Shown here: positions 2,471 to 15,785 of the stretch, piece by piece
How positions within the stretch are numbered: the stretch's first letter is position 1
How the letters are laid out: the number at the start of each line of letters is the position of its first letter
Notes under the pieces: generated by a model
Databases searched by the model: none
Seen by the model: the letters and a program-made list of their open reading frames with translations, nothing else
What the model was told of the DNA's origin: nothing
DNA from: a virus
Length of the DNA: 20,500 bases
IMG/VR virus record: IMGVR_UViG_3300034190_001591
Span: 1-20,500 of that record
Reading direction: 5' to 3' (one strand)
Translations under genes and position numbers: made by a program

Positions 2471-4327
2471 TTATATTGTCGCTCCTTCAACTATATTGTT
2501 TTCTAAACTTTGGGCTGTTGTTACATCGTTTGCAACTACATAGGCTTGAACAGGTTGGTTCGTTTGTCCTGCAACCGCATCAGATAAAACACTTGTTTCC
2601 GTTGCTCCAACTACATTAAAACTTGGGGGTAATGATGTGGGTATTGATGGGGTTGAAATACTAGGAACTGATGCAGAAGCACTCGCCCCTGCTTTCGCTT
2701 TCGTTTTTGAAACTGCTTTTTTAACAGAACTAATAATACCAACACCTTGTGCAATAGCACTACCAATAGTAATTATATTTTGTGGAAAACCAATTTTAGA
2801 ACTTTCAGCTACGTTTTGTGCTGTTGAAACTCCCGCCGAACCAACCGCCTCAACACCTTTAAATGTAATTCTTTTTAAATCCATTATAGTTTCTTGCAGA
2901 GCTAAACCTTGTTTTATAAGTAACAAGGCTTTACCAATTCCTGATTCTGCATCTGCAAATTGTGATATAGCATCTACAACGGCTTTTTTATCTGCTATCT
3001 TTTGTTTGTCTAATTCTGCTTCTGCTTTATCAAGAGCTATTTTATTATCTAATCTTAAACCATCATAATAATCTTCTACTTCTTGTTTTTGTTCTTTTGT
3101 AGCTTTTAACCTATCTAGTTCAGCTAATTTACGTTCTTCTTCAAGGTTTATTTTTTCAAGTTCAGTTTCAGCATCTTTATCTTTTTGTTTTTGCCTATAT
3201 GCTTCTTGTATTTCTTGAATCTTTAGAAGTTTTTTATCAATTACTTCTGGTTCTTCTTCTGCTGCCTTTTTTGCTTCGTTTCTAGCTGTTAAAAGTTCTG
3301 TACTTAACCTCTTTTGTAAATTAAGTCTTTGTGTTTCTAACTGTATAACACTAGCTTCTAATTGTGCTGCTTCGTTTAAGTCGTCCTTATTACTTTTAGT
3401 TAAAGCGTTTTCTGTTTGTTTTGCTTCTAACCTTAATTTAGCTACTTCCGTTTCTTTTGCCGCTAAATCTTCACTAATTTTCCCTGCTTCTTCTAAAAAT
3501 TTAATGCGTTCCTCTGCTGTGAATTTATCTTTATTAACTGCTTTTTCTCTAAGTCTAGCAATATCTTGTTCCGCTTGTGCTCTTGAAACTATTAAATCCC
3601 TTGCTTTTTTTTCTGCGGTGGCTCTTTGGTCTGCAATTTTAGACGCTGCCTCTGAATCTGCTTTTATTTCTTTACCAAACGCCTTAACGGATTCAACCGC
3701 ATTATCTAAGCTATCAGTGACGCTATCTACACCCAAAACAACCTTACCAACGCTGTCAGCGGCAATCTTTCCTGCCTCTTTAAAATTACCTTTAAATAGC
3801 TGCTCAACCGCTTTACCTAAGTTTGGTATTAAGTTTAATAAACCCTCAAATCTATTGACTATATTATCTTTAATTAAATTAGCAAAGTCTTTTATTGATT
3901 GTTTAGGATTTTCAAAAACACTTATAATATTCTCGCCTAAGTCAGCTAATAAGTCTAAAAGGTTTCCTGTAACGCTACCAATAACACCGAGTATTTTTGC
4001 AAATTTATTTTGACCCTCCTCGCTTCTTGTAAATGCTTGGCTTAAAGAAGTAACCGCAATTAATAAAGCACCAATTCCTGTGCCTATTATAGCTACTTTT
4101 AAAGACTTAAAACCAGTTGTTACACCACTAATAGCACCCTTAAAAGCTGCAAATTTAGAAACCGCTCCACCTGTGGCTTTGTCAAGAGTTCCGCTCATTG
4201 CTTGGGTTGATTTGCTTGTTTCCTTGACTTCTTTGTTTACTCCATCAATACTTTTCTCTAAGTCATTTAAACCCTTTGTAGCCTTTTTACTATCTACGTT
4301 TAAATTAATAGTTTTTTCTATTGCCAT
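2471..4327 (-). CDS. Tail tape measure protein
   Basis: This is a 618-residue protein with a tape-measure build. The N-terminal helical segment (residues 1-50) has the common phrase KKATKGLNDLEKSIDGVNKE. A Gly/Ala-rich hydrophobic segment lies at about 73-98 (KVAIIGTGIGALLIAVTSL). A long charged coiled coil covers roughly residues 220-450, rich in Lys, Glu, Ala and Gln. A second Gly/Ile/Ala hydrophobic stretch lies near 515-535, and the C-terminus is Ser/Pro/Ala-rich. The protein should line the tail tube and set its length. By the usual rule of about 0.15 nm per residue, this suggests a tail near 90 nm. It begins inside the 46-residue upstream gene (10-nt overlap). Confidence 0.85.
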   Translation of the reverse strand: MAIEKTINLNVDSKKATKGLNDLEKSIDGVNKEVKETSKSTQAMSGTLDKATGGAVSKFAAFKGAISGVTTGFKSLKVAIIGTGIGALLIAVTSLSQAFTRSEEGQNKFAKILGVIGSVTGNLLDLLADLGENIISVFENPKQSIKDFANLIKDNIVNRFEGLLNLIPNLGKAVEQLFKGNFKEAGKIAADSVGKVVLGVDSVTDSLDNAVESVKAFGKEIKADSEAASKIADQRATAEKKARDLIVSRAQAEQDIARLREKAVNKDKFTAEERIKFLEEAGKISEDLAAKETEVAKLRLEAKQTENALTKSNKDDLNEAAQLEASVIQLETQRLNLQKRLSTELLTARNEAKKAAEEEPEVIDKKLLKIQEIQEAYRQKQKDKDAETELEKINLEEERKLAELDRLKATKEQKQEVEDYYDGLRLDNKIALDKAEAELDKQKIADKKAVVDAISQFADAESGIGKALLLIKQGLALQETIMDLKRITFKGVEAVGSAGVSTAQNVAESSKIGFPQNIITIGSAIAQGVGIISSVKKAVSKTKAKAGASASASVPSISTPSIPTSLPPSFNVVGATETSVLSDAVAGQTNQPVQAYVVANDVTTAQSLENNIVEGATI

Positions 4328-4458
4328 TTTATTTCTTGTTTTAATGTTTTGTAACCCTCTTTTAAAGTTGTAGGTAGTTTATATTTACCTTGTGCAATTC
4401 GTAAATTTTCGGTTTCTCCGTTTGCGTACTTTAAACTTTCTATTATTAATTTTATCAT
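4318..4458 (-). CDS. Small protein between the tail hub gene and the tape measure gene
   Basis: This is a 46-residue protein starting MIKLIIESLKYANGETENLR and ending QEIKWQ. The ATG at 4458 overlaps the stop of the 871-residue tail gene (ATGA), and its own stop lies 10 nt inside the tape measure gene. Such tight overlap on both sides supports a real, translationally coupled gene. I do not recognise a family. A small tail assembly factor would fit the position, but this is inference. Confidence 0.6.
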   Translation of the reverse strand: MIKLIIESLKYANGETENLRIAQGKYKLPTTLKEGYKTLKQEIKWQ

Positions 4459-7070
4459 AATGTTGTTTGAAATAAGTCTGTGTCAAATGCTCCAGCCTCT
4501 ACGCCATCAATATCGTAAATAGCCCTTAAAGATATTTTATAAGTTGTATCAGCGTCTAAATTACTAAAGCCGTAACCTACATCTCCTTGTAAATTAAAGT
4601 CATAATATTCTCCATCTAAATATATTTCGAACTTTACAAAATTAGTATCAGTTATATTATCAAATTGAACATTTATTGTACTACTTGTTTTGCTTGCTGT
4701 TTCTAAATTCTCAACTCTTTGTAAATCTAGTCTTTGACCGTTTAAACTTTGCGAAGTGTTTACATTTAAATTATATAATTCCAAGTCACTTTTGTTTGTT
4801 AGTAGATTTGTTTTTATAGAATTTATTCTGTACTCCGTTGTGCCTATAATAAATATATCGTTTAACCTATAATTTAAAATAACATTCAAAGGTAAGTAAG
4901 CAGAAACATTAGTTTTTCTTGAATTTCTAGCGAATAAATTAGCTACATAATTTCTGTAATACTTAGTAAATAAATCCTTTCGCTGACTTCCGATGGTTGC
5001 AGTTCCAGTGCTTAGTGTATATTCATCTACTTCAACGCCAAAATTTAATGTTTCAAGAAAATCTACTGTTGTAATATCTGTAATAGAATTGGATGGTCTT
5101 AAATAAGGATTTATATTATCTAAAGTACCATCAGGATATTCTAATAAAAGTGGGTAATTTGGGGAATCTGTGGATGTGCTAAAACAATAAAATAATAAAG
5201 GAGAACCTATTGTTGGTTCAAACTTCTTATCTAACATAGCACCTTGAACAATATCCGTTAAACTTCCATCGCTTTCATTACTCAATCTTTCGTACATCAT
5301 CTTTTCAAAATCAACTTCAACTTTGTAATCACCACCATCCCATTCATCATTGCCATAACTTTCTTGTGAAAATTTATTACCTTGCAATTCATCTGCATAT
5401 TGTACTAAATACGATTTTTTGCTTTTAAATTTAAATATCATATTTTTAAATTGCAGTAACTTAGATACAGTTTTTTTGCTAGTATCTACATATTCAGTAA
5501 TGTCGTAAACCTTACCAGCGTTGTAATAATCATCTAAAGGTAATACCGTTATAACTCCGTCCTCTTTATATGCAGTTAAATTAAACATCGTAAAGATATT
5601 TTTAAGAAAATCAAATATTTTCATCTTAGGCATTTGATTGGCTATAATAATAGTGTTTTCTTCTGATGTAGCTGCTTTTTGATAATTACCATTAAATCGA
5701 ATTTGAAAATTACCGCTATTAATTCTATAACCTTTTCTAACTGTTAATGTTTGATTTATTCCCAAAGTGTTTTCAGCATTTATATTTATAAATACATCTA
5801 TATGATGTGATCCATAATTATCCTTTGAAAACTCATAATTAAACTGTTGATTTCCTGTGCCATCTCCTTCAAATAAAACAGAATTGTCCTCAGCTCTTAA
5901 TATTTGAACGCTATAATTTAATGCTTGGTCTAGCGTTGTAACGCTCAACTCAAAAATATAACCCCATCTTTGAACCCACCAATTAACAGGCTGATGAAAA
6001 CAACTTGCAGGTCTTAAATCAGTTCCACTAACATAATTGTAGTTAGTTGCTGACGATGATGCGTTTTCAGGTAGATACCACCTATTGCTTATTTGTTGGA
6101 CTGCCCCCCCCTCATTAGCATTAGACATATAACCCTCCTCTCTATGAAGCCACATATATAATTTTTTAAAACTAGAACTATTAAAAAACTGTTGGCTGAA
6201 TTTAATTTGTGGATAAGTTGTTTCTATCGCATCAATTATAACTTTAGTTTTTAAAGCAGGCTTTAAATCCGCATAATTTAAGTAAGTATTTGTTATAGCA
6301 TCCTTGTAACCTACATTACCATTATATCCATATCGCATATTCTTACTGTGCGTTATAAGGGGGAATATTAAATCGTAACCCTCTGCCTCCCCACCCAATC
6401 TGCCAGTAACAAAACCGCTCGTATAATTAAAATTTAAACTATCTGGATATATCAAAGAACTCAATTCGTTTTCTGCTAATATTTTTTTAAATTCAACTGT
6501 TTCACCAGTAAACACTAACTTATAAGAATAAGCTACATTGTTTTTTAATTCAACAGATGTAAGCCTAAGTGAGCCTATTTTATAGTCAATGCCATTTAAT
6601 TGGATAAGTCCGTCACCTTGAAATCTAGCATCAAAACTATTATCTATTTCACTATTATAATAATGCTTAAAAAACTTATTATTATGTTTAGATGCAGGAA
6701 CACTAAACTGTTGGCTAAACGGTGCAAATATTTTAGATGGGTCTTTTACATTTTGAATAGTATCTGTAATTGACACGCTCTCATCTTTGAATAATTCAAG
6801 TTTTGTATAATCATCATAAATTTGGTAAGTTTGATTTGTGCCAGAAAAACCTCCCCCTGTAATATCTAAGGTATTAACGTTACCACCTGGAGCTATTGCA
6901 GTTATAGAACCAAGAATCCCAGAGTTTAAATCTTTAATTAATTGACCTACTCTGAAATCGCCTATTGTGAAATCTGTTGATGTATCTACAAGTCTAGTTC
7001 CATTATTAAAAAATTGAGCTTGACTGATGTATTTCCTACCCTCTCTAATATATAAGTCTATTATCTGCAT
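4455..7070 (-). CDS. Large tail protein, hub/baseplate-like, with C-terminal fibronectin III-like domain
   Basis: This is an 871-residue protein. The N-terminal part includes a Gly-rich beta segment (about residues 40-80) and then DPSKIFAPFSQQFSVPASKH (about 110-130), a phrase I associate with Bacteroidetes phage tail hub or tail-tip proteins. The middle is mostly beta with many aromatic and Asn residues. The last 75 residues look like a fibronectin type III domain: NVQFDNITDTNFVKFEIYLD, then GYGFSNLDADTTYKISLRAI. Such domains are common at the ends of siphophage tail-tip proteins and may touch the cell surface. It lies directly after the 369-residue gene with no spacer. A role in tail tip or host recognition is inferred. 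Confidence 0.65.
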   Translation of the reverse strand: MQIIDLYIREGRKYISQAQFFNNGTRLVDTSTDFTIGDFRVGQLIKDLNSGILGSITAIAPGGNVNTLDITGGGFSGTNQTYQIYDDYTKLELFKDESVSITDTIQNVKDPSKIFAPFSQQFSVPASKHNNKFFKHYYNSEIDNSFDARFQGDGLIQLNGIDYKIGSLRLTSVELKNNVAYSYKLVFTGETVEFKKILAENELSSLIYPDSLNFNYTSGFVTGRLGGEAEGYDLIFPLITHSKNMRYGYNGNVGYKDAITNTYLNYADLKPALKTKVIIDAIETTYPQIKFSQQFFNSSSFKKLYMWLHREEGYMSNANEGGAVQQISNRWYLPENASSSATNYNYVSGTDLRPASCFHQPVNWWVQRWGYIFELSVTTLDQALNYSVQILRAEDNSVLFEGDGTGNQQFNYEFSKDNYGSHHIDVFININAENTLGINQTLTVRKGYRINSGNFQIRFNGNYQKAATSEENTIIIANQMPKMKIFDFLKNIFTMFNLTAYKEDGVITVLPLDDYYNAGKVYDITEYVDTSKKTVSKLLQFKNMIFKFKSKKSYLVQYADELQGNKFSQESYGNDEWDGGDYKVEVDFEKMMYERLSNESDGSLTDIVQGAMLDKKFEPTIGSPLLFYCFSTSTDSPNYPLLLEYPDGTLDNINPYLRPSNSITDITTVDFLETLNFGVEVDEYTLSTGTATIGSQRKDLFTKYYRNYVANLFARNSRKTNVSAYLPLNVILNYRLNDIFIIGTTEYRINSIKTNLLTNKSDLELYNLNVNTSQSLNGQRLDLQRVENLETASKTSSTINVQFDNITDTNFVKFEIYLDGEYYDFNLQGDVGYGFSNLDADTTYKISLRAIYDIDGVEAGAFDTDLFQTTL

Positions 7071-8180
7071 TTATCTAATGTTGTTTATAGTGTCAAAAGC
7101 AAAATCTATTTTTATAGTGTAATTAATTAGCTTGTCGTTTAGGCTTGTTTTATAGCTAAAGCTACTATCCGTTACATTAACAGGCAAAACAATATTGTCA
7201 ATTTCAATCCAACAATCCTCGCTTAATTGCATTTGTTTAAATACCTCGTTGTATTCCTCTGGATAAAACCCTGTATTTAAGTCCATTTTTTCGTTACCCA
7301 TTTTATATAGGTTTTTCTTTTGGTGCTTGTCCGTTCCGTAACTATTGGCTGATAGTGTGTTTCTTTTGAAGTCCTCTGCCTTAGTAGATAATTGTTTATT
7401 GCTACGCTTAAAGAACCATATATTTTGCAATGCTCCAAACTTGTTTATAAAACTTAATTTATAAGGCTCGTATTTGCATTCTGTTATATTTTCAACTTTA
7501 ACAACCAAAACACCATCGTCTGAATTTATGTAAATAGTATCAACAGGGAATGTCACGTTACTGTCTAAAAACTCTTGTAAACATATACTACCCTCAAAAG
7601 TACCACCATCCCTATACACCCTGTCTGAAAATTCATCTGCTCCATTTACAGTATTTGAAACGTATTGTATTTGAGTTGATGATGTGGTTGTCGGTGCGAA
7701 ATTCCGCTCGTAAACTTCTACGTTTTCTGAATAATATTCTACGCTTGTAACCTTGCTTGTTTCAATAGGTAAAACAACTGGTGCATCATCTAACTTTACT
7801 ACCGTTAAATTTGACTGCAATAGTCCGCTATCGTTTTGAGGATTTACTCCTTGCTCAAAATATCCATAACCATAAAAGCCCTTTAATTCTACAAAAGGTA
7901 AATCACCAGAAACTCCATTTACTGTTCTGCGTATTTGATAATCAACCCACACAATTTCTGTTTCTAAATCATCTGCATTATAATCCATATAATCTTTCAC
8001 TAGTTCCGCTATCTCAAAATTAACAGTAAAATTTACTGCCGATGCTCTTAAAACATAAGTAGGGGTTATGGGTCTTGAGCCTTGAGTTCCATTATATATA
8101 TAAAGACGTATTTCGGCTTCTGTTAAACCGTTCAAGTTTAAATATACATAGTATGGACTTCTTACATTAATTTTTGCCAT
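7071..8180 (-). CDS. Tail structural protein
   Basis: This is a 369-residue protein, predominantly beta-like. It begins with MAKINVRSPYYVYLNLNGLT and GLTEAEIRLYIYNGTQGSRP. Later phrases include GFYGYGYFEQGVNP, an aromatic NIWFFKRSN segment near residue 255, and the C-terminal SYKTSLNDKLINYTIKIDFA. I recognise this as a conserved companion of the large tail protein in Bacteroidetes phages but cannot name a role with certainty. It lies between the gp10-like gene (1-nt gap upstream) and the 871-residue gene (directly adjacent). A distal tail or tail-tip component is the most likely option. Confidence 0.6.
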   Translation of the reverse strand: MAKINVRSPYYVYLNLNGLTEAEIRLYIYNGTQGSRPITPTYVLRASAVNFTVNFEIAELVKDYMDYNADDLETEIVWVDYQIRRTVNGVSGDLPFVELKGFYGYGYFEQGVNPQNDSGLLQSNLTVVKLDDAPVVLPIETSKVTSVEYYSENVEVYERNFAPTTTSSTQIQYVSNTVNGADEFSDRVYRDGGTFEGSICLQEFLDSNVTFPVDTIYINSDDGVLVVKVENITECKYEPYKLSFINKFGALQNIWFFKRSNKQLSTKAEDFKRNTLSANSYGTDKHQKKNLYKMGNEKMDLNTGFYPEEYNEVFKQMQLSEDCWIEIDNIVLPVNVTDSSFSYKTSLNDKLINYTIKIDFAFDTINNIR

Positions 8181-8181
8181 T

Positions 8182-8712
8182 TTATCGTTTTGTTAATTTT
8201 ATTAAATCTTTTTCTAGTCCTAGCGAATAGGCTTTTATTAAATCATCTGGGAGCCTTTTAAACGCTGCTACAAATGGCTTAGTAAAAAATAAACTAGGCT
8301 TCATTCCTTTTTGATATATACTTCTAGCAATTAAAAATGCCGTACTTTGGTAACTTAAAAACCGCCCTGTCTTTCTGTCTTTAAATTGTATTTTTTTTCT
8401 TTTAACATAGCTTTGCATTGCTTCGGTTAAACCGCCTTTACGTCCTGTTCCACTACCAAACCTAAACGGACTGTTGGGTGCTTTTGCACTTGAAGATTTA
8501 CCACGAACCCCTTTGTCCTGAAACTCTCCGTATTGCTCCATATTAAAGCCCAGTTCAGCCCCTTTTGTTGTCAGCTCTATATCGTACCCTAAACTATTAT
8601 AAAGTGCCTTAGTATCGTTCTTACTGCTTTTAGATAGATTACTTCGGCTTTGTTGTATAACGTATTTAGCGAACTTGTTTAATTCTTCTTGTAAAAACTT
8701 ATCCGCTAACAT
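8182..8712 (-). CDS. HK97 gp10-like tail completion protein
   Basis: This is a 176-residue basic protein. The N-terminus is amphipathic (EELNKFAKYVIQQSRSNLSK). The central motif YGEFQDKGVRGK (about residues 81-92) is the typical 'YGxFxDxGxxG' signature of HK97 gp10-like proteins, and a Gly-rich loop with SPFRFGSGTGRKGG follows. The C-terminal part contains the phrase FLIARSIYQKGMKPSLFFTK, which recurs in this family. These proteins act at the head-tail joint or in tail completion. The start overlaps the upstream gene by 7 nt. Assignment is by motif only. Confidence 0.7.
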   Translation of the reverse strand: MLADKFLQEELNKFAKYVIQQSRSNLSKSSKNDTKALYNSLGYDIELTTKGAELGFNMEQYGEFQDKGVRGKSSSAKAPNSPFRFGSGTGRKGGLTEAMQSYVKRKKIQFKDRKTGRFLSYQSTAFLIARSIYQKGMKPSLFFTKPFVAAFKRLPDDLIKAYSLGLEKDLIKLTKR

Positions 8713-9176
8713 ATTTCAATATCATTATTTACAAATATGTCAAACGTTGCAGTCCAACCTGCTACTTTGTTTTCAAACCTATCAACAAAAGGTTCTAAAC
8801 TTGCATCACCATCTAATTGATATTTATCACTGTATAAATCGCCACGCCTTAAAACTTGTACTAACTTATTTAAAACTGCCAGTTGTGTGTTTAAAACGTC
8901 CTGTTCGTTATTGTTTCCTATGAATATATCAGTAGTTGGTTCTTTGCTTTCATCTACAATATCCATTGCTAAAATAGAAATGTTAAACCGCAAAACGCTT
9001 TCTTGTGCAGTAACGGTATTTATAATCAAATGAGATAATGGAAATATTGACTGCTTAGACAAATCAATATCAAACAAATCACCCTCTGTAACGGTGTTTA
9101 CATTTATATCAGATAAAAGTTGGTCTTTTATTGCTTGGGTTAATAAATAATATCCTCTTATTCCTGTGTAACTCAT
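8706..9176 (-). CDS. Probable tail terminator/completion protein
   Basis: This is a 156-residue protein starting MSYTGIRGYYLLTQAIKDQL. It contains LFDIDLSKQSIFPLSHLIIN (about residues 50-70) and QDVLNTQLAVLNKLVQVLRR. These phrases recur in a Bacteroidetes phage family found beside gp10-like genes. Size, mixed alpha/beta pattern and position between the chaperone and the gp10-like gene match tail terminator or tail completion proteins of siphophages. The start overlaps the end of the chaperone extension by 4 nt (ATGA), so it is translated directly after the frameshift product. The specific role is inferred. Confidence 0.6.
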   Translation of the reverse strand: MSYTGIRGYYLLTQAIKDQLLSDINVNTVTEGDLFDIDLSKQSIFPLSHLIINTVTAQESVLRFNISILAMDIVDESKEPTTDIFIGNNNEQDVLNTQLAVLNKLVQVLRRGDLYSDKYQLDGDASLEPFVDRFENKVAGWTATFDIFVNNDIEIC

Positions 9177-9427
9177 TTGAATTTGCTTTTAATATTTCTT
9201 GCTTCTATTTCGTTTTTTTCTTTTGTATATGTTAAGTACGTCAAACATTCGTGAACGTTTAATTTAGTGATATCTTCAAATCTTGTAACATCTCCGTTAG
9301 CGATTGCATAGATTGAATTGTACCATCCCCATTTTGTAGTGAATCCAGATACTGCACTAAATTCTCTTCGTTCTGTTTGCTCGAAGAGTTCAGGATAACT
9401 GTCGATAAGTCTTTGCCTAAATCGTAA
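9173..9427 (-). CDS. Tail assembly chaperone, frameshifted C-terminal extension (gpT-like)
   Basis: This reading frame carries 84 residues from Leu (TTA at 9427-9425) to the stop at 9173. It is best explained as the -1 frame extension of the 9259..9903 gene. Its second half, KWGWYNSIYAIANGDVTRFE followed by ITKLNVHECLTYLTY, has the usual pattern of the C-terminal part of siphophage tail chaperone fusions (WGW...IY.lA.GDi..fd.i..l....CLtyL.y). An ATG exists at 9451 in this frame, but it lies before the slippery run and encodes only a short Phe/Cys lead with no homology-like character. Reading through the frameshift would give a fusion of about 243 residues (159 + 84). See the slippery site at 9426..9434. 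Confidence 0.7.
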   Translation of the reverse strand, partial: LRFRQRLIDSYPELFEQTERREFSAVSGFTTKWGWYNSIYAIANGDVTRFEDITKLNVHECLTYLTYTKEKNEIEARNIKSKFK

Positions 9428-12031: not shown

Positions 12032-12553
12032 CTAGCACAATACAGGATTTTTAACTCGGTTGTTTAATAACGCTCCTTTTACTTCTTTTATAGTCTTTGG
12101 TTTCACCCTGTGCTTTAATAATGCTTTAAATGGGTCTAGTCGTGTTTGTTTAAACTCTGTTACTGTTTCTATATCCCATCCAGATAAAATGTCTGTAATG
12201 TCTTGTATTTCTTTAATTGTTTTATTTGTTTGTTTGTTTTTTATTTCTTTTTTTATTTTTTCCTGTTCTGGGTTGAAGAAAGGTTTTGAGAATACTAAAT
12301 CCAATTCTTTTATTATCTCATCGTGTTTCTTTTTGTATTCTACGCTTATAGTATCAATGCTATTAACGTGGTGTAATACGTTGCAATGACTTCTGCCTAT
12401 TGCTTCCCCAACTGCTCTAAATGTAGCACCGCTTTCATAACCTAGTTTTGAGAATACTTTTTTAGCATCTGTGAAATTTCGTTGTCTTGAATTGGTTGCT
12501 ATATCTAAATTAAATTTTTTATCTACTGCTTGTTTTATTGTTTCTAGTTTCAT
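12032..12553 (-). CDS. DnaA domain IV-like DNA-binding protein
   Basis: This is a 173-residue protein. Residues 1-66 look like DnaA domain IV: a basic helix with RQRNFTDAKKVFSKL, then the helix-turn-helix signature VGEAIGRSHCNVLHHV (about 48-63), close to DnaA's 'IGGRDHTTVLHA'. No AAA+ ATPase domain is present, so it cannot be a full initiator. The remaining 100 residues are Lys-rich and unrecognised (DITDILSGWDIETVTEFKQT). It may bind DNA at an origin or regulatory site. It lies between the small zinc-type gene (8 nt upstream) and the terminase genes. Confidence 0.75.
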   Translation of the reverse strand: MKLETIKQAVDKKFNLDIATNSRQRNFTDAKKVFSKLGYESGATFRAVGEAIGRSHCNVLHHVNSIDTISVEYKKKHDEIIKELDLVFSKPFFNPEQEKIKKEIKNKQTNKTIKEIQDITDILSGWDIETVTEFKQTRLDPFKALLKHRVKPKTIKEVKGALLNNRVKNPVLC

Positions 12554-12849: not shown

Positions 12850-13293
12850 TTAATCTAATTTAGTAAATTCAGTTATTTGTGTTTTATTTATTTCTTCTTT
12901 GTTTTCTTTGTATTGTTTTACAAGTGCTTCAATCATTACAAGTTCATCAATGCTAGCAGTTTTAATACTGTGCATTAAGCTATCTATTTTATTTAGTACA
13001 TTGGTACACATTTCAGGGTTGTTGTTGTATATCGCATTAAAACCCTCTTGATAAACGCTTTCTAATATATTGCTTGTTTTGTTTACTTGTAGCTTTACGT
13101 TTTGTTTAAATGCTTTACTGCCTTTTAAGTCATCGTTTGCTTCCAATAGTAATTGACTTATCAATACACATTTTAAATATGCTAAATGCCTGTCGTTTAT
13201 TGGTTCGTCTTGTACTCCCCTTACTTGTTCTTGGTGTTCTTGTTCTTTTTGTTCCATTTCTTTATAATATTCTATTTGTTTTTTTCTATCCAT
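12850..13293 (-). CDS. Hypothetical helical protein
   Basis: This is a 147-residue, mostly helical protein. The N-terminus is charged and Gln/Glu-rich (KEMEQKEQEHQEQVRGVQDE). No catalytic motif is visible. The gene starts inside the DUF3310 gene (22-nt overlap); a second Met at codon 12 is an alternative start with no overlap. It is followed by the 44-residue gene after one base. I do not recognise the family. Confidence 0.6.
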   Translation of the reverse strand: MDRKKQIEYYKEMEQKEQEHQEQVRGVQDEPINDRHLAYLKCVLISQLLLEANDDLKGSKAFKQNVKLQVNKTSNILESVYQEGFNAIYNNNPEMCTNVLNKIDSLMHSIKTASIDELVMIEALVKQYKENKEEINKTQITEFTKLD

Positions 13294-13499
13294 TGTTGTT
13301 GTTGTTCCCTAAGGTATTCTATTTCACGCCTTAAATAATCTGCTGCTTTTTCTAAGTCTTTTAATTCATCGTCTTTCTTTCCGCTTCTGCAAATATACTT
13401 AATTATATTTCCCCTGTTGAAGTTTAGTTCATAATCTTTTATAAAGTCTATAACATCATAGCCTTTACCGTTTTCGTAATGTAAATAAGTTGCTCTCAT
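13272..13499 (-). CDS. DUF3310 family protein
   Basis: This is a 75-residue protein with GKGYDVIDFIKDYELNFNRG, followed by IIKYICRSGKKDDELKDLEKAADYL. This is the standard signature of DUF3310, a short phage family often found beside nucleotide or DNA metabolism genes; the biochemical role is not established. The start overlaps the stop of the glycosyltransferase gene by one base (TAATG), tying it to the modification cassette in translation. Confidence 0.85.
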   Translation of the reverse strand: MRATYLHYENGKGYDVIDFIKDYELNFNRGNIIKYICRSGKKDDELKDLEKAADYLRREIEYLREQQQQWIEKNK

Positions 13500-14242
13500 T
13501 AAAATAAATTTATTTGTTTAGAATTTAAAATTTTATAACTATTCCTATTTAATAGTATTTCGTTTTCCCTTTTAGTATTTAACTTTATGCAATCACCCCA
13601 TTTTTCAATCAAGTATTTTATAGTTTCTTGTTCTAGAACTGACGTCCTGTAATCAACCGCACCACCTTTATTAGAATAATGTTTGAATGACATTAAGTAA
13701 TCTGCATAACGTATGCAGCCACCTTTTAATTTCATAAAACTTAAACAAAAATCATAATCTTCTTTTAGCTTTAAATTATTATCAAACCTTATTGTTGTGG
13801 GTTTTACTATTAAGAAGTCACCGACTATAAACTTGTTTAAATCAAATTCATTAAGTGCAAAGAATGGGTTATTAGTAGGTGGGAATCCTGCTAATTGATA
13901 ACCTGATTCAATAAATTTAGGCATTATATTCTCTAAGACTTTTAAAACAGTAACGTATTCTTTCGTTCTTTTCCCTGTAAAGTCATTAACCATTATTGAT
14001 TCAAGGTCGTCACTTAACTCAACGCAAATTGCATTTACATTAAAGCAATAATCTAAAGCTGCATTCCTACTATCCATTAAGTTCCCTGATGCTATTACAT
14101 TATTTGCTCCATTTAACTTATAATTATCAATATCTGTTTGGTCTTTAACAAAAAAAACAACATCTTCAGTTCCTACTTTTTCAAAAAAGTTTTTTACATT
14201 TTCGTGCCTGTTATGGCTTATGCAAGTTATAATATAATCCAT
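13499..14242 (-). CDS. TET/JBP-associated glycosyltransferase (TAGT-like)
   Basis: This is a 247-residue protein from the ATG at 14242. The ORF is open from an earlier ATG at 14281, but 14242 gives a TAATG overlap with the upstream stop and removes a 13-residue Ser/Asn/Lys lead, so it is preferred. Features fit a GT-A type glycosyltransferase: SGNLMDSRNAALDYCF (about 52-67), an acidic motif VELSDDLESI (74-83) as a DxD-like metal site, LKEDYDFCLSFMKLKGG (159-175), and HYSNKGGAVDYR near the end. This order (SRn.A..., DD, EDyDf...G, GG) matches the TAGT families found with TET/JBP oxygenases in phages. The likely job is to add sugar to a hydroxymethyl base in DNA made by the neighbouring dioxygenase. 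The sugar is unknown. Confidence 0.7.
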   Translation of the reverse strand: MDYIITCISHNRHENVKNFFEKVGTEDVVFFVKDQTDIDNYKLNGANNVIASGNLMDSRNAALDYCFNVNAICVELSDDLESIMVNDFTGKRTKEYVTVLKVLENIMPKFIESGYQLAGFPPTNNPFFALNEFDLNKFIVGDFLIVKPTTIRFDNNLKLKEDYDFCLSFMKLKGGCIRYADYLMSFKHYSNKGGAVDYRTSVLEQETIKYLIEKWGDCIKLNTKRENEILLNRNSYKILNSKQINLF

Positions 14243-14697
14243 TAAAATAATTTTGTTTGACTTGTTACTTTTTGAATACAAAACTTATCAGCATTTTTCT
14301 TGCTTAATAAATACCCTTTTTCAGTTCCACCCTTTGGAGTTTTAAAACCATTAAACAAAGGTAAATCATTAACTTCGTAAACTTGTTTTAAATGCTTAAC
14401 CGCAAAAATATAAAAGCAATCTACATCACCTATAACATAAAGCCAACTCTGGTCTTTATATATTCCGCTTGGGTGTTTCTTATAGCCATAATCACGCTCT
14501 ACGCTTATAAATAGGTTGCCAGTCTTTTTAAACATCTGGTCGTTCTTTATTTCAATACCTTGTCTGTTCTCGCCTTTGTGTATTTGCTCATCATAGGTTG
14601 TGTAATGGCTTAGATTAATCTTATGGTTTTCTGCGAACCAATCCATAATGAATGACTCAAACTTTAACCCCTTACTTTGTTTTGTTGTTGTTTTCAT
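14242..14697 (-). CDS. PD-(D/E)XK nuclease-like protein within the modification cassette
   Basis: This is a 151-residue protein. It begins MKTTTKQSKGLKFESFIMDW with Glu14 or nearby in the first helix. Residues 36-51 read YDEQIHKGENRQGIEIK, which gives an acidic residue and a G-I-E-x-K core (Glu49, Lys51) of a restriction-endonuclease-like fold. NLFISVERDYGYK follows, then a hydrophobic strand SWLYVIGDVDCFYIF. It lies between the dioxygenase (10-nt gap) and the glycosyltransferase (1-nt overlap). A nuclease acting on unmodified or modified DNA, or a resolvase, are both possible. The fold call is tentative. Confidence 0.5.
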   Translation of the reverse strand: MKTTTKQSKGLKFESFIMDWFAENHKINLSHYTTYDEQIHKGENRQGIEIKNDQMFKKTGNLFISVERDYGYKKHPSGIYKDQSWLYVIGDVDCFYIFAVKHLKQVYEVNDLPLFNGFKTPKGGTEKGYLLSKKNADKFCIQKVTSQTKLF

Positions 14698-14707
14698 TGT
14701 TTTTGTT

Positions 14708-15580
14708 TTATAGTGTTAAATACCCTGTTTTATCCATTTTAGCTTTTTGTAGTTCACCACTTGGGCTACTGCATTTAATCATATTTTCACGATAGTACAT
14801 CACAAAACTTATGCGTAACCAATCCTCGCTGCAATTAGTAAATTCTGTGTTTGCGTGCCACTTGTGTACGTCTGCGAATAATAAGTCAGTATTTTCTAAG
14901 TCAATTGCAACCCCAAACTCTGGCATCACAAAGTAACCTCCATCATAATTACCTTCCCGATACACTATAAGGTTCCCAAACCCCTCACGGAAATCACCAG
15001 CGTCTTGGTGACAAGCGGTGCGGAAGTTCTTATTGACTGTTACAGTTGTAAAGCTAGTGTCGCCTATAACATAATTTCTGTTCGTGCCATCTGCAATCGC
15101 CTTTTGTTTTGCGTGGTGTTCTGGGCATAGTTCAGCATATTTCTTATCAATGAATTCCACGAACGGTATGCCTTGTTTGAATTTATCAAAATGATTCTTA
15201 GCGAATGCGGTTGTTCTACAATATTTAACCATAGCACCACTATCCATAAAACCAACGTTACCAGATTCTACCTTATTGCCTACTGTTATATTACTAATGC
15301 TCCCGTCTTTTCTAATCCTTTTATGACTGCTACCACTAGCAGAACCACGACCCTCAGTCACTTCTATAGAGCCTTTAAAGGCATCAACCCCATTTTTAAG
15401 GACATCCATTGGTATTGCATTTTTCCTGAACCTAAATAATAAGTTCCCATAATTGTCATAGGCGTCGCAATCCTTTGTGATTAAAGTATTGTAATGGCTT
15501 GAGTCAAGGAATTTAGTTTTCAGCTTTGCAGCTTTACCGCTATCTAAAACTCTTTTTACTATTATTTTATCTATTTTCAT
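14708..15580 (-). CDS. TET/JBP-family 2-oxoglutarate/Fe(II) dioxygenase
   Basis: This is a 290-residue protein whose second half matches the TET/JBP superfamily, which oxidises the methyl group of thymine or 5-methylcytosine in DNA. Iron ligands are HQD at His191 and Asp193, and His242 in VHKWHANTEF. Arg256 in LRISFVMYYR should bind 2-oxoglutarate. Between them, REGFGNLIVY (198-207) and GGYFVMPEFGVAIDLENTDL (214-233) repeat the JBP pattern 'GFGNL...Y.GG...P....a.Dl...D.l.fd.H.WH.N'. The N-terminal half has no clear motif apart from a Gly/Ser stretch (GRGSASGSSHKR). Its start overlaps the 72-residue gene upstream by 14 nt. With the TAGT gene downstream, it likely makes the hydroxymethyl base for glycosylation. 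Confidence 0.85.
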   Translation of the reverse strand: MKIDKIIVKRVLDSGKAAKLKTKFLDSSHYNTLITKDCDAYDNYGNLLFRFRKNAIPMDVLKNGVDAFKGSIEVTEGRGSASGSSHKRIRKDGSISNITVGNKVESGNVGFMDSGAMVKYCRTTAFAKNHFDKFKQGIPFVEFIDKKYAELCPEHHAKQKAIADGTNRNYVIGDTSFTTVTVNKNFRTACHQDAGDFREGFGNLIVYREGNYDGGYFVMPEFGVAIDLENTDLLFADVHKWHANTEFTNCSEDWLRISFVMYYRENMIKCSSPSGELQKAKMDKTGYLTL

Positions 15581-15785
15581 ATCTTTGTTTTAGCACCTTT
15601 AAAAGTAAATCACTTAAATTTCCTTTTTGTTGGTAATCTTCTTTGAACTCTATCTTTATCCCTTTTTTACATAAGGCTTTAAATTCTTTTAACTCTTGCT
15701 TACTAAAGTAAAGTATTGTCGTTGTAATTTCAACATCTTCTATCGGTGAATTATCAACCCCCCATTCGTCATCAAATAATTTCAT
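15567..15785 (-). CDS. Hypothetical small protein upstream of the dioxygenase
   Basis: This is a 72-residue protein, MKLFDDEWGVDNSPIEDVEI at its N-terminus, then ILYFSKQELKEFKALCKKGI and a Lys-rich end. The N-terminal acidic segment and the C-terminal helix are the only clear features. It overlaps the dioxygenase start by 14 nt and follows the 56-residue gene after 2 nt, so it belongs to the same transcript. The family is unknown to me. Confidence 0.6.
   Translation of the reverse strand: MKLFDDEWGVDNSPIEDVEITTTILYFSKQELKEFKALCKKGIKIEFKEDYQQKGNLSDLLLKVLKQRYENR

Follow-up and report, generated by a model that had tools for sequence, protein, structure and literature searches.

Burke et al. 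2021 reportedly describe the experimentally studied phage TETs as members of a pathway that runs from a cytosine-C5 methyltransferase (C5-MTase) through 5-methylcytosine (5mC) to 5-hydroxymethylcytosine (5hmC) and on to glycosylation. The TAGT glycosyltransferases are said to have been named by Iyer et al. in 2013. Pfam calls their family (PF20691) 'TET-Associated Glycosyltransferase', and the TET-TAGT pair is a known, computationally described kind of system. The thymidine hypermodifications of phages ViI, M6 and W-14 (Lee et al. 2018; PMC6449724) go through 5-hydroxymethyldeoxyuridine (5hmdU), which is thought to be made before replication by a thymidylate-synthase-like enzyme; ViI DNA contains 5-(2-aminoethoxy)methyl-dU (5-NeOmdU), formed via 5hmdU (PMC6449724). 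Glucosylated 5hmdU was stated in 2019 to be unreported in phage genomes (PMC6449724).

The window analyzed here, that is, the whole stretch of DNA under study, is an entire linear viral contig of 20.5 kb and a fragment of a marine phage; as the contig is linear and of this length, the window may be incomplete. A sequence-only reading had proposed that it encodes a TET/JBP-type oxygenase and, one gene further on, a TAGT glycosyltransferase, together forming a DNA base hypermodification module. The genes of the window and the segments compared in other phages are collected in Table 1, where labels such as L006 or L053 denote the relatives' loci or records used for comparison.

Table 1. Positions of the genes and segments discussed in the text
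Record	Feature	Positions	Strand	Basis or remark
Window	Repeated stretch of ~25 nt, two copies	16190-15960	-	ahead of short ORFs
Window	72-aa protein gene	15567..15785	-	overlaps TET start by 14 nt; 22 loci
Window	TET/JBP-type Fe(II)/2-oxoglutarate dioxygenase, 290 aa, ATG start	14708..15580	-	Pfam Tet_JBP and AlphaFold2 fold
Window	Middle protein, 151 aa	14242..14697	-	conserved in TET loci; possible PD-(D/E)XK-like nuclease
Window	TAGT glycosyltransferase, 247 aa	13499..14242	-	Pfam PF20691, PHROG 842
Window	DUF3310 protein	13272..13499	-	Pfam PF11753, 52.5 bits; TAATG overlap with TAGT
Window	Gene with a DnaA C-terminal domain match	12032-12553	-	slightly under Pfam cut-off
L003	C5-MTase-like gene, 213 aa	1954-2595	+	three genes upstream of TET
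L053 (Nonlabens phage P12024L)	Exchanged segment	16207-18674		TET, TAGT, methyltransferase
L075 (phage P12024S)	Exchanged segment	16313-17855		ATPase/GNAT gene
L055 (Stenotrophomonas phage DLP6)	TET cluster	2499-6789		TET, TAGT, nucleotidyltransferase
L027	Two TET genes and kinase-like gene	4398-6922	+	65 kb contig
L054 (Pelagibacter phage HTVC112P)	TET and its neighbours	6973-9195		ParB-like gene, FkbM-type methyltransferase

Ten nucleotides separate the TET gene from the middle gene, and the middle gene is joined to the TAGT gene by a TAATG overlap. A second TAATG overlap, at 13499, links the TAGT gene to that of the DUF3310 protein. Because of these overlaps and the 10-nt gap, the stretch 15785-12850 reads as one operon. 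The TAGT start is likely the ATG at 14242, which takes part in the TAATG overlap; the TTG at 14281 chosen by the ORF finder falls within the middle gene. The DUF3310 gene belongs to the same transcription unit and probably lies outside the modification module. Upstream of the operon the stretch TTGCAGTATCTTAAAAAACAAAACAATG occurs twice ahead of short ORFs and is perhaps a promoter or leader. Between the operon and the terminase genes lies a gene with a near-threshold match to the C-terminal (DNA-binding) domain of DnaA.

How well do the two enzymes fit their families? The TET protein scored 85 bits (4.5e-24) against Pfam Tet_JBP (PF12851), whose curated cut-off is 34.9, and the profile search of the whole contig gave one match (86.4 bits). 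The residues His191, Asp193, His242 and Arg256, named in the sequence-only reading as the HxD...H...R set, are exactly at these positions and are invariant in an alignment of 55 TET relatives. The AlphaFold2 model (pLDDT 91.5, pTM 0.88) agrees with the double-stranded beta-helix fold of the family, and the sequence carries the HxD motif, the distal His and the 2-oxoglutarate-binding Arg. The best 26 matches of this model in a PDB fold search are all DNA-acting TET/JBP enzymes (TET2, NgTet1, CcTet, and CMD1), with E-values down to 1.6e-12. By family and fold, the window TET would oxidize the 5-methyl group of pyrimidines in DNA. Decay or inactivity of the module in the window phage is very improbable: the catalytic residues are all intact and invariant, the reading frames are open and tightly coupled, and other contigs carry copies of the TET protein that are 98-100% identical.

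The TAGT protein lies near the edge of its family, with 33.3 bits against PF20691 (curated cut-off 27.5) and 8.8e-13 against PHROG 842. It shares with the family both a score above this cut-off and the linkage to a TET gene in the same operon. The motifs DD (D78-D79) and KEDYDF (160-165) are present, and R12, R59, D78, and D162 are invariant across 26 TAGTs. The TAGT profile gave weak matches to GT-A/GT2-type structures (9jma, E 0.007; 5tze, E 0.03). TAGT was linked to TET in 23 of 49 records from several phage groups. By family, the window TAGT would glycosylate hydroxymethyl-pyrimidines in DNA.

What had been read from the letters about the two families and the gene coupling stood up to profile searches, structure prediction and inspection of the gene borders, and the general reading, a module for DNA base oxidation plus glycosylation, is strongly supported. 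The best overall explanation, more likely than not, is a post-replicative DNA hypermodification module with thymine as the preferred target. The oxygenase would act on pyrimidines after their incorporation into phage DNA and hydroxylate the 5-methyl; with a nucleotide sugar as donor, the TAGT would then glycosylate the resulting 5-hydroxymethyl group. Both activities are predicted from the enzyme families. If the substrate is thymine, the product would be a glycosylated 5-hydroxymethyluracil (5hmU) similar to base J. Host restriction enzymes would plausibly be unable to cut DNA modified in this way.

A different division of labor, in which TET is a counter-defence demethylase erasing host-type marks (5mC or 6mA) and TAGT modifies a protein, lipid or other phage product, appears quite improbable. 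The fold matches do include the fungal bifunctional 5mC/6mA enzyme CcTet. In other loci, however, the partners of TET are transferases that modify DNA. In phage P12024L an N6/N4-type DNA methyltransferase directly follows TAGT, whereas the window and relatives lacking such an adjoining gene still keep the TET-TAGT pair. The nearest solved relatives of TAGT, although weakly matched, act on lipid-linked or cell-wall sugars; the recurrent linkage of TAGT to TET across phage groups speaks against such a division.

If the hypermodification module is accepted, then we can ask: which pyrimidine does it act on, thymine or 5mC? The sequence-only reading had left the choice between the two undecided and had seen no C5-MTase in the window, and a PF00145 search confirmed this for the 20.5 kb of this incomplete genome. 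The search was also negative for the complete genomes of P12024L, DLP6, HTVC112P, and Cr30 and for close relatives of 28 and 30 kb. A homologue of thymidylate synthase/dUMP hydroxymethylase (PF00303), a possible source of hydroxymethyl-pyrimidine nucleotides, was found neither in the incomplete window nor in P12024L, DLP6 or HTVC112P, and Cr30 carries one.

On the phylogenetic tree two sets of phage TETs stand apart, that of the window and the Melnitz-type clade. In almost all Melnitz-type loci the gene just upstream of TET encodes a C5-MTase, and a TAGT sometimes follows TET. Among phage TETs with upstream sequence, a C5-MTase lies at most two genes upstream in 58 of 59 TETs with Asp at residue 264 and in all three with Gly (61/62 together), against 0/51 of the window type, which has Arg there. 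The Fisher p-value of 1e-31 overstates the case, since the rows are related.

Such counts bear directly on the possibility that the same module has 5mC as its target, so that a C5-MTase provides 5mC, TET converts it to 5hmC and TAGT glycosylates the latter. The window being incomplete, the C5-MTase may be encoded beyond its ends, or 5mC may come from the host. This is how the best-studied phage TETs work, and the Melnitz-type loci show the corresponding gene order. Moreover, locus L003, whose TET is 98% identical to that of the window, has a short C5-MTase-like gene nearby; its product matches PF00145 and has the PPCP and ENV motifs, is without the target-recognition part, and has no counterpart at that place in the window. 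C5-MTase-like genes also occur in the TET neighbourhoods of L028 and L030. Nevertheless, the absence of PF00145 from the complete and long related genomes, its absence from the two genes upstream of all window-type TETs counted, and the partners of TET in the window's own subclade make 5mC the less likely target.

These partners are as follows. The subclade comprises 14 rows with full support, and TAGT follows most of its TETs. In L020 and L025, TET is followed instead by a protein of ~365 aa and a P-loop kinase. The L020 TET is 71% identical to that of the window, and the adjoining transferase is homologous (E 5e-25) to Vi01_199 of Salmonella phage ViI, itself a match (3.2e-58) to the Pfam family ADDT, 'amino acid:DNA transferase'. 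The ~365-aa protein is also homologous (E 1.4e-77) to gp3, which lies beside TET in Coopervirus mycobacteriophages. In L032 there is a direct match to ADDT (1.8e-17), while L038 has an additional PLP enzyme resembling that of the ViI group. As the same kind of TET feeds ADDT-type enzymes and no 5hmdUMP synthase was found in the genomes searched above apart from the Cr30 homologue, the simplest explanation has TET converting thymine to 5hmU within DNA.

The P-loop kinase and TAGT were rejected as markers of a thymine pathway: both also occur beside C5-MTase-linked TETs, and so the ADDT link alone speaks for thymine. Dinucleotide bias proved uninformative about the sequence context of the target, since the ratios for GpC and further dinucleotides hardly differ between P12024L, which has TET, and its sister phage P12024S, which lacks it. 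By guilt by association, thymine is the likelier target with a somewhat better than even chance, and it is preferred over 5mC by a moderate lean of the evidence.

Two positions of TET may be connected with the choice of base. In the residue alignment to TET2, Y262 and R264 correspond to Y1902 and H1904. Residue 264, eight positions after the catalytic Arg, is a candidate specificity residue: every window-type TET has R there, whereas TETs linked to a C5-MTase have D or G and those of the Coopervirus type have L; the pattern is clean and comes from two or three clades with few independent events. Five positions after the first His, D196 is kept in the window and C5-MTase-linked types and replaced by N in Coopervirus. 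D196, if anything, suits the cytosine reading, because NgTet1 has at this position the Asp that contacts the 5mC amino group.

The module also has to be considered together with the variability of its second enzyme. L006 and L009 have 95% identical DNA through the whole of the middle gene, to its final base; their TAGTs are unrelated, and 92% identity resumes shortly ahead of the DUF3310 gene. Compared with L015, L014 carries one additional, inserted TAGT. When 16 loci whose TETs share at least 79.6% identity are compared pairwise, the TAGTs are less than 35% identical in 48 of the 120 pairs. Clustering of the TAGTs of 20 loci at 45% identity gave five groups, three of them within the 16 loci with similar TETs. 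Near-identical phages thus differ by wholesale replacement of the glycosyltransferase, with TET and the middle gene unchanged, and what varies in the arms race is probably the sugar. Selection, perhaps by modification-dependent restriction enzymes, may have driven this change of sugar. The TAGTs exchanged beside a constant oxygenase form a ready-made series for finding out how well different sugars protect against particular enzymes of this kind.

It is useful to follow the module across other phages. A scan of viral contigs for TET gave 51 relatives, and a scan of genome contigs for bacterial or prophage relatives found none. In the cultured, complete Nonlabens phage P12024L, whose TET is 70% identical, gp26 and gp27 are TET and TAGT, followed by the methyltransferase mentioned above. 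The sister phage P12024S, which infects the same host strain (Persicivirga sp. IMCC12024) and has 97% identical flanks, has an ATPase/GNAT gene in place of this cassette and neither TET nor TAGT; the ATPase/GNAT gene is possibly another modification or defence cassette. This replacement shows the module behaving as an exchangeable accessory cassette, and it is dispensable for the growth of phages of this genus on that host. Since the two phages are near-identical, share one host and differ in possession of the module, the question is testable with existing isolates.

Stenotrophomonas phage DLP6 has a distant R264-type TET, a TAGT and a sugar-type nucleotidyltransferase in one cluster. The nucleotidyltransferase was published as ModA, and the TET is annotated as 'SNF2 DNA repair protein'; TETs in phage records are frequently misannotated, as SNF2, queuine tRNA-ribosyltransferase or DnaJ. 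DLP6 DNA is listed as resistant to restriction enzymes in a review (PMC8228603, Table 1). As a test between T and C this was discarded, the source stating 'restriction resistant' only, which singles out neither base. Other phage loci have different genes beside TET. In L027 two nearby TET genes are followed by a P-loop kinase-like gene, and the contig is without TAGT. In Pelagibacter phage HTVC112P, which has neither TAGT nor C5-MTase, TET is flanked by a ParB-like gene and by an FkbM-type methyltransferase, and the hydroxymethyl base might be O-methylated instead of glycosylated. In L044 and L045 TET is followed by genes for a class II glutamine amidotransferase-like protein, an amidoligase-like protein and possibly a GNAT; this suggests that still further side chains are built on the oxidized base.

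The middle gene, to which the sequence-only reading gave no role, is conserved in the window's clade and confined to TET loci (15 matches in one search, 21 loci in another count); a further copy, in L173, also accompanies a TET. The protein had zero Pfam families above cut-off and zero PDB sequence matches. Its AlphaFold2 model is of moderate quality (pLDDT 80), and the best fold match is the PD-(D/E)XK enzyme I-Ssp6803I, a weak one (E 0.14, prob 0.75). A helix with E14 is followed by E43...E49-x-K51, of which E-x-K is conserved. The gene may encode a nuclease, judging from this model and motif. A match to the restriction enzyme NgoMIV (11 bits, cut-off 23) is not evidence and was set aside. 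Speculatively, the middle protein would act on unmarked DNA as a nuclease or support modification in another way. The 72-aa gene is conserved directly upstream of TET in the same clade, and its product gave zero matches in the Pfam search.

The complete proposal combines base-J-like glycosyl-5hmU made from thymine, a constant TET, a sugar varied by TAGT exchange and possibly a mark-discriminating nuclease; in this full form it is tentative, with slightly less than an even chance. If thymine is indeed the target, viruses of bacteria would have their own counterpart to the base J of kinetoplastids, and an origin of TET/JBP enzymes in phages would gain support. In sequencing and labelling, a phage TET specific for T would be of practical use.

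The clade described here, free of C5-MTase, linked to thymine pathways and swapping its glycosyltransferases, is a variant of the known TET-TAGT pair, in which nearly the same TET is accompanied by at least three TAGT families of less than 45% identity. With the C5-MTase-linked phage TETs, here the Melnitz type, it shares a phage TET in a modification cluster, in some cases with TAGT, and differs from them in the upstream C5-MTase and in residue 264. The window TET resembles TET2, NgTet1, CcTet, CMD1, and JBP1/2 in fold, in the HxD...H...R set and in the stacking Tyr at R+6, while its identity to the solved structures of this family is 10-13%, its Arg stands where TET2 has H1904 and its substrate is predicted. 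With the thymidine hypermodification of ViI, M6, and W-14 the connection is that close TET relatives use the same ADDT-type transferase and kinase step. In contrast to those phages, no thymidylate-synthase-like gene was found in the incomplete window or in P12024L, and TET would make 5hmU within DNA. The kinetoplastid base J pathway would work alike, a thymine hydroxylase being followed by a glycosyltransferase; here the product is predicted, and JGT of the base J pathway and the window TAGT are likened by role and not by established homology.
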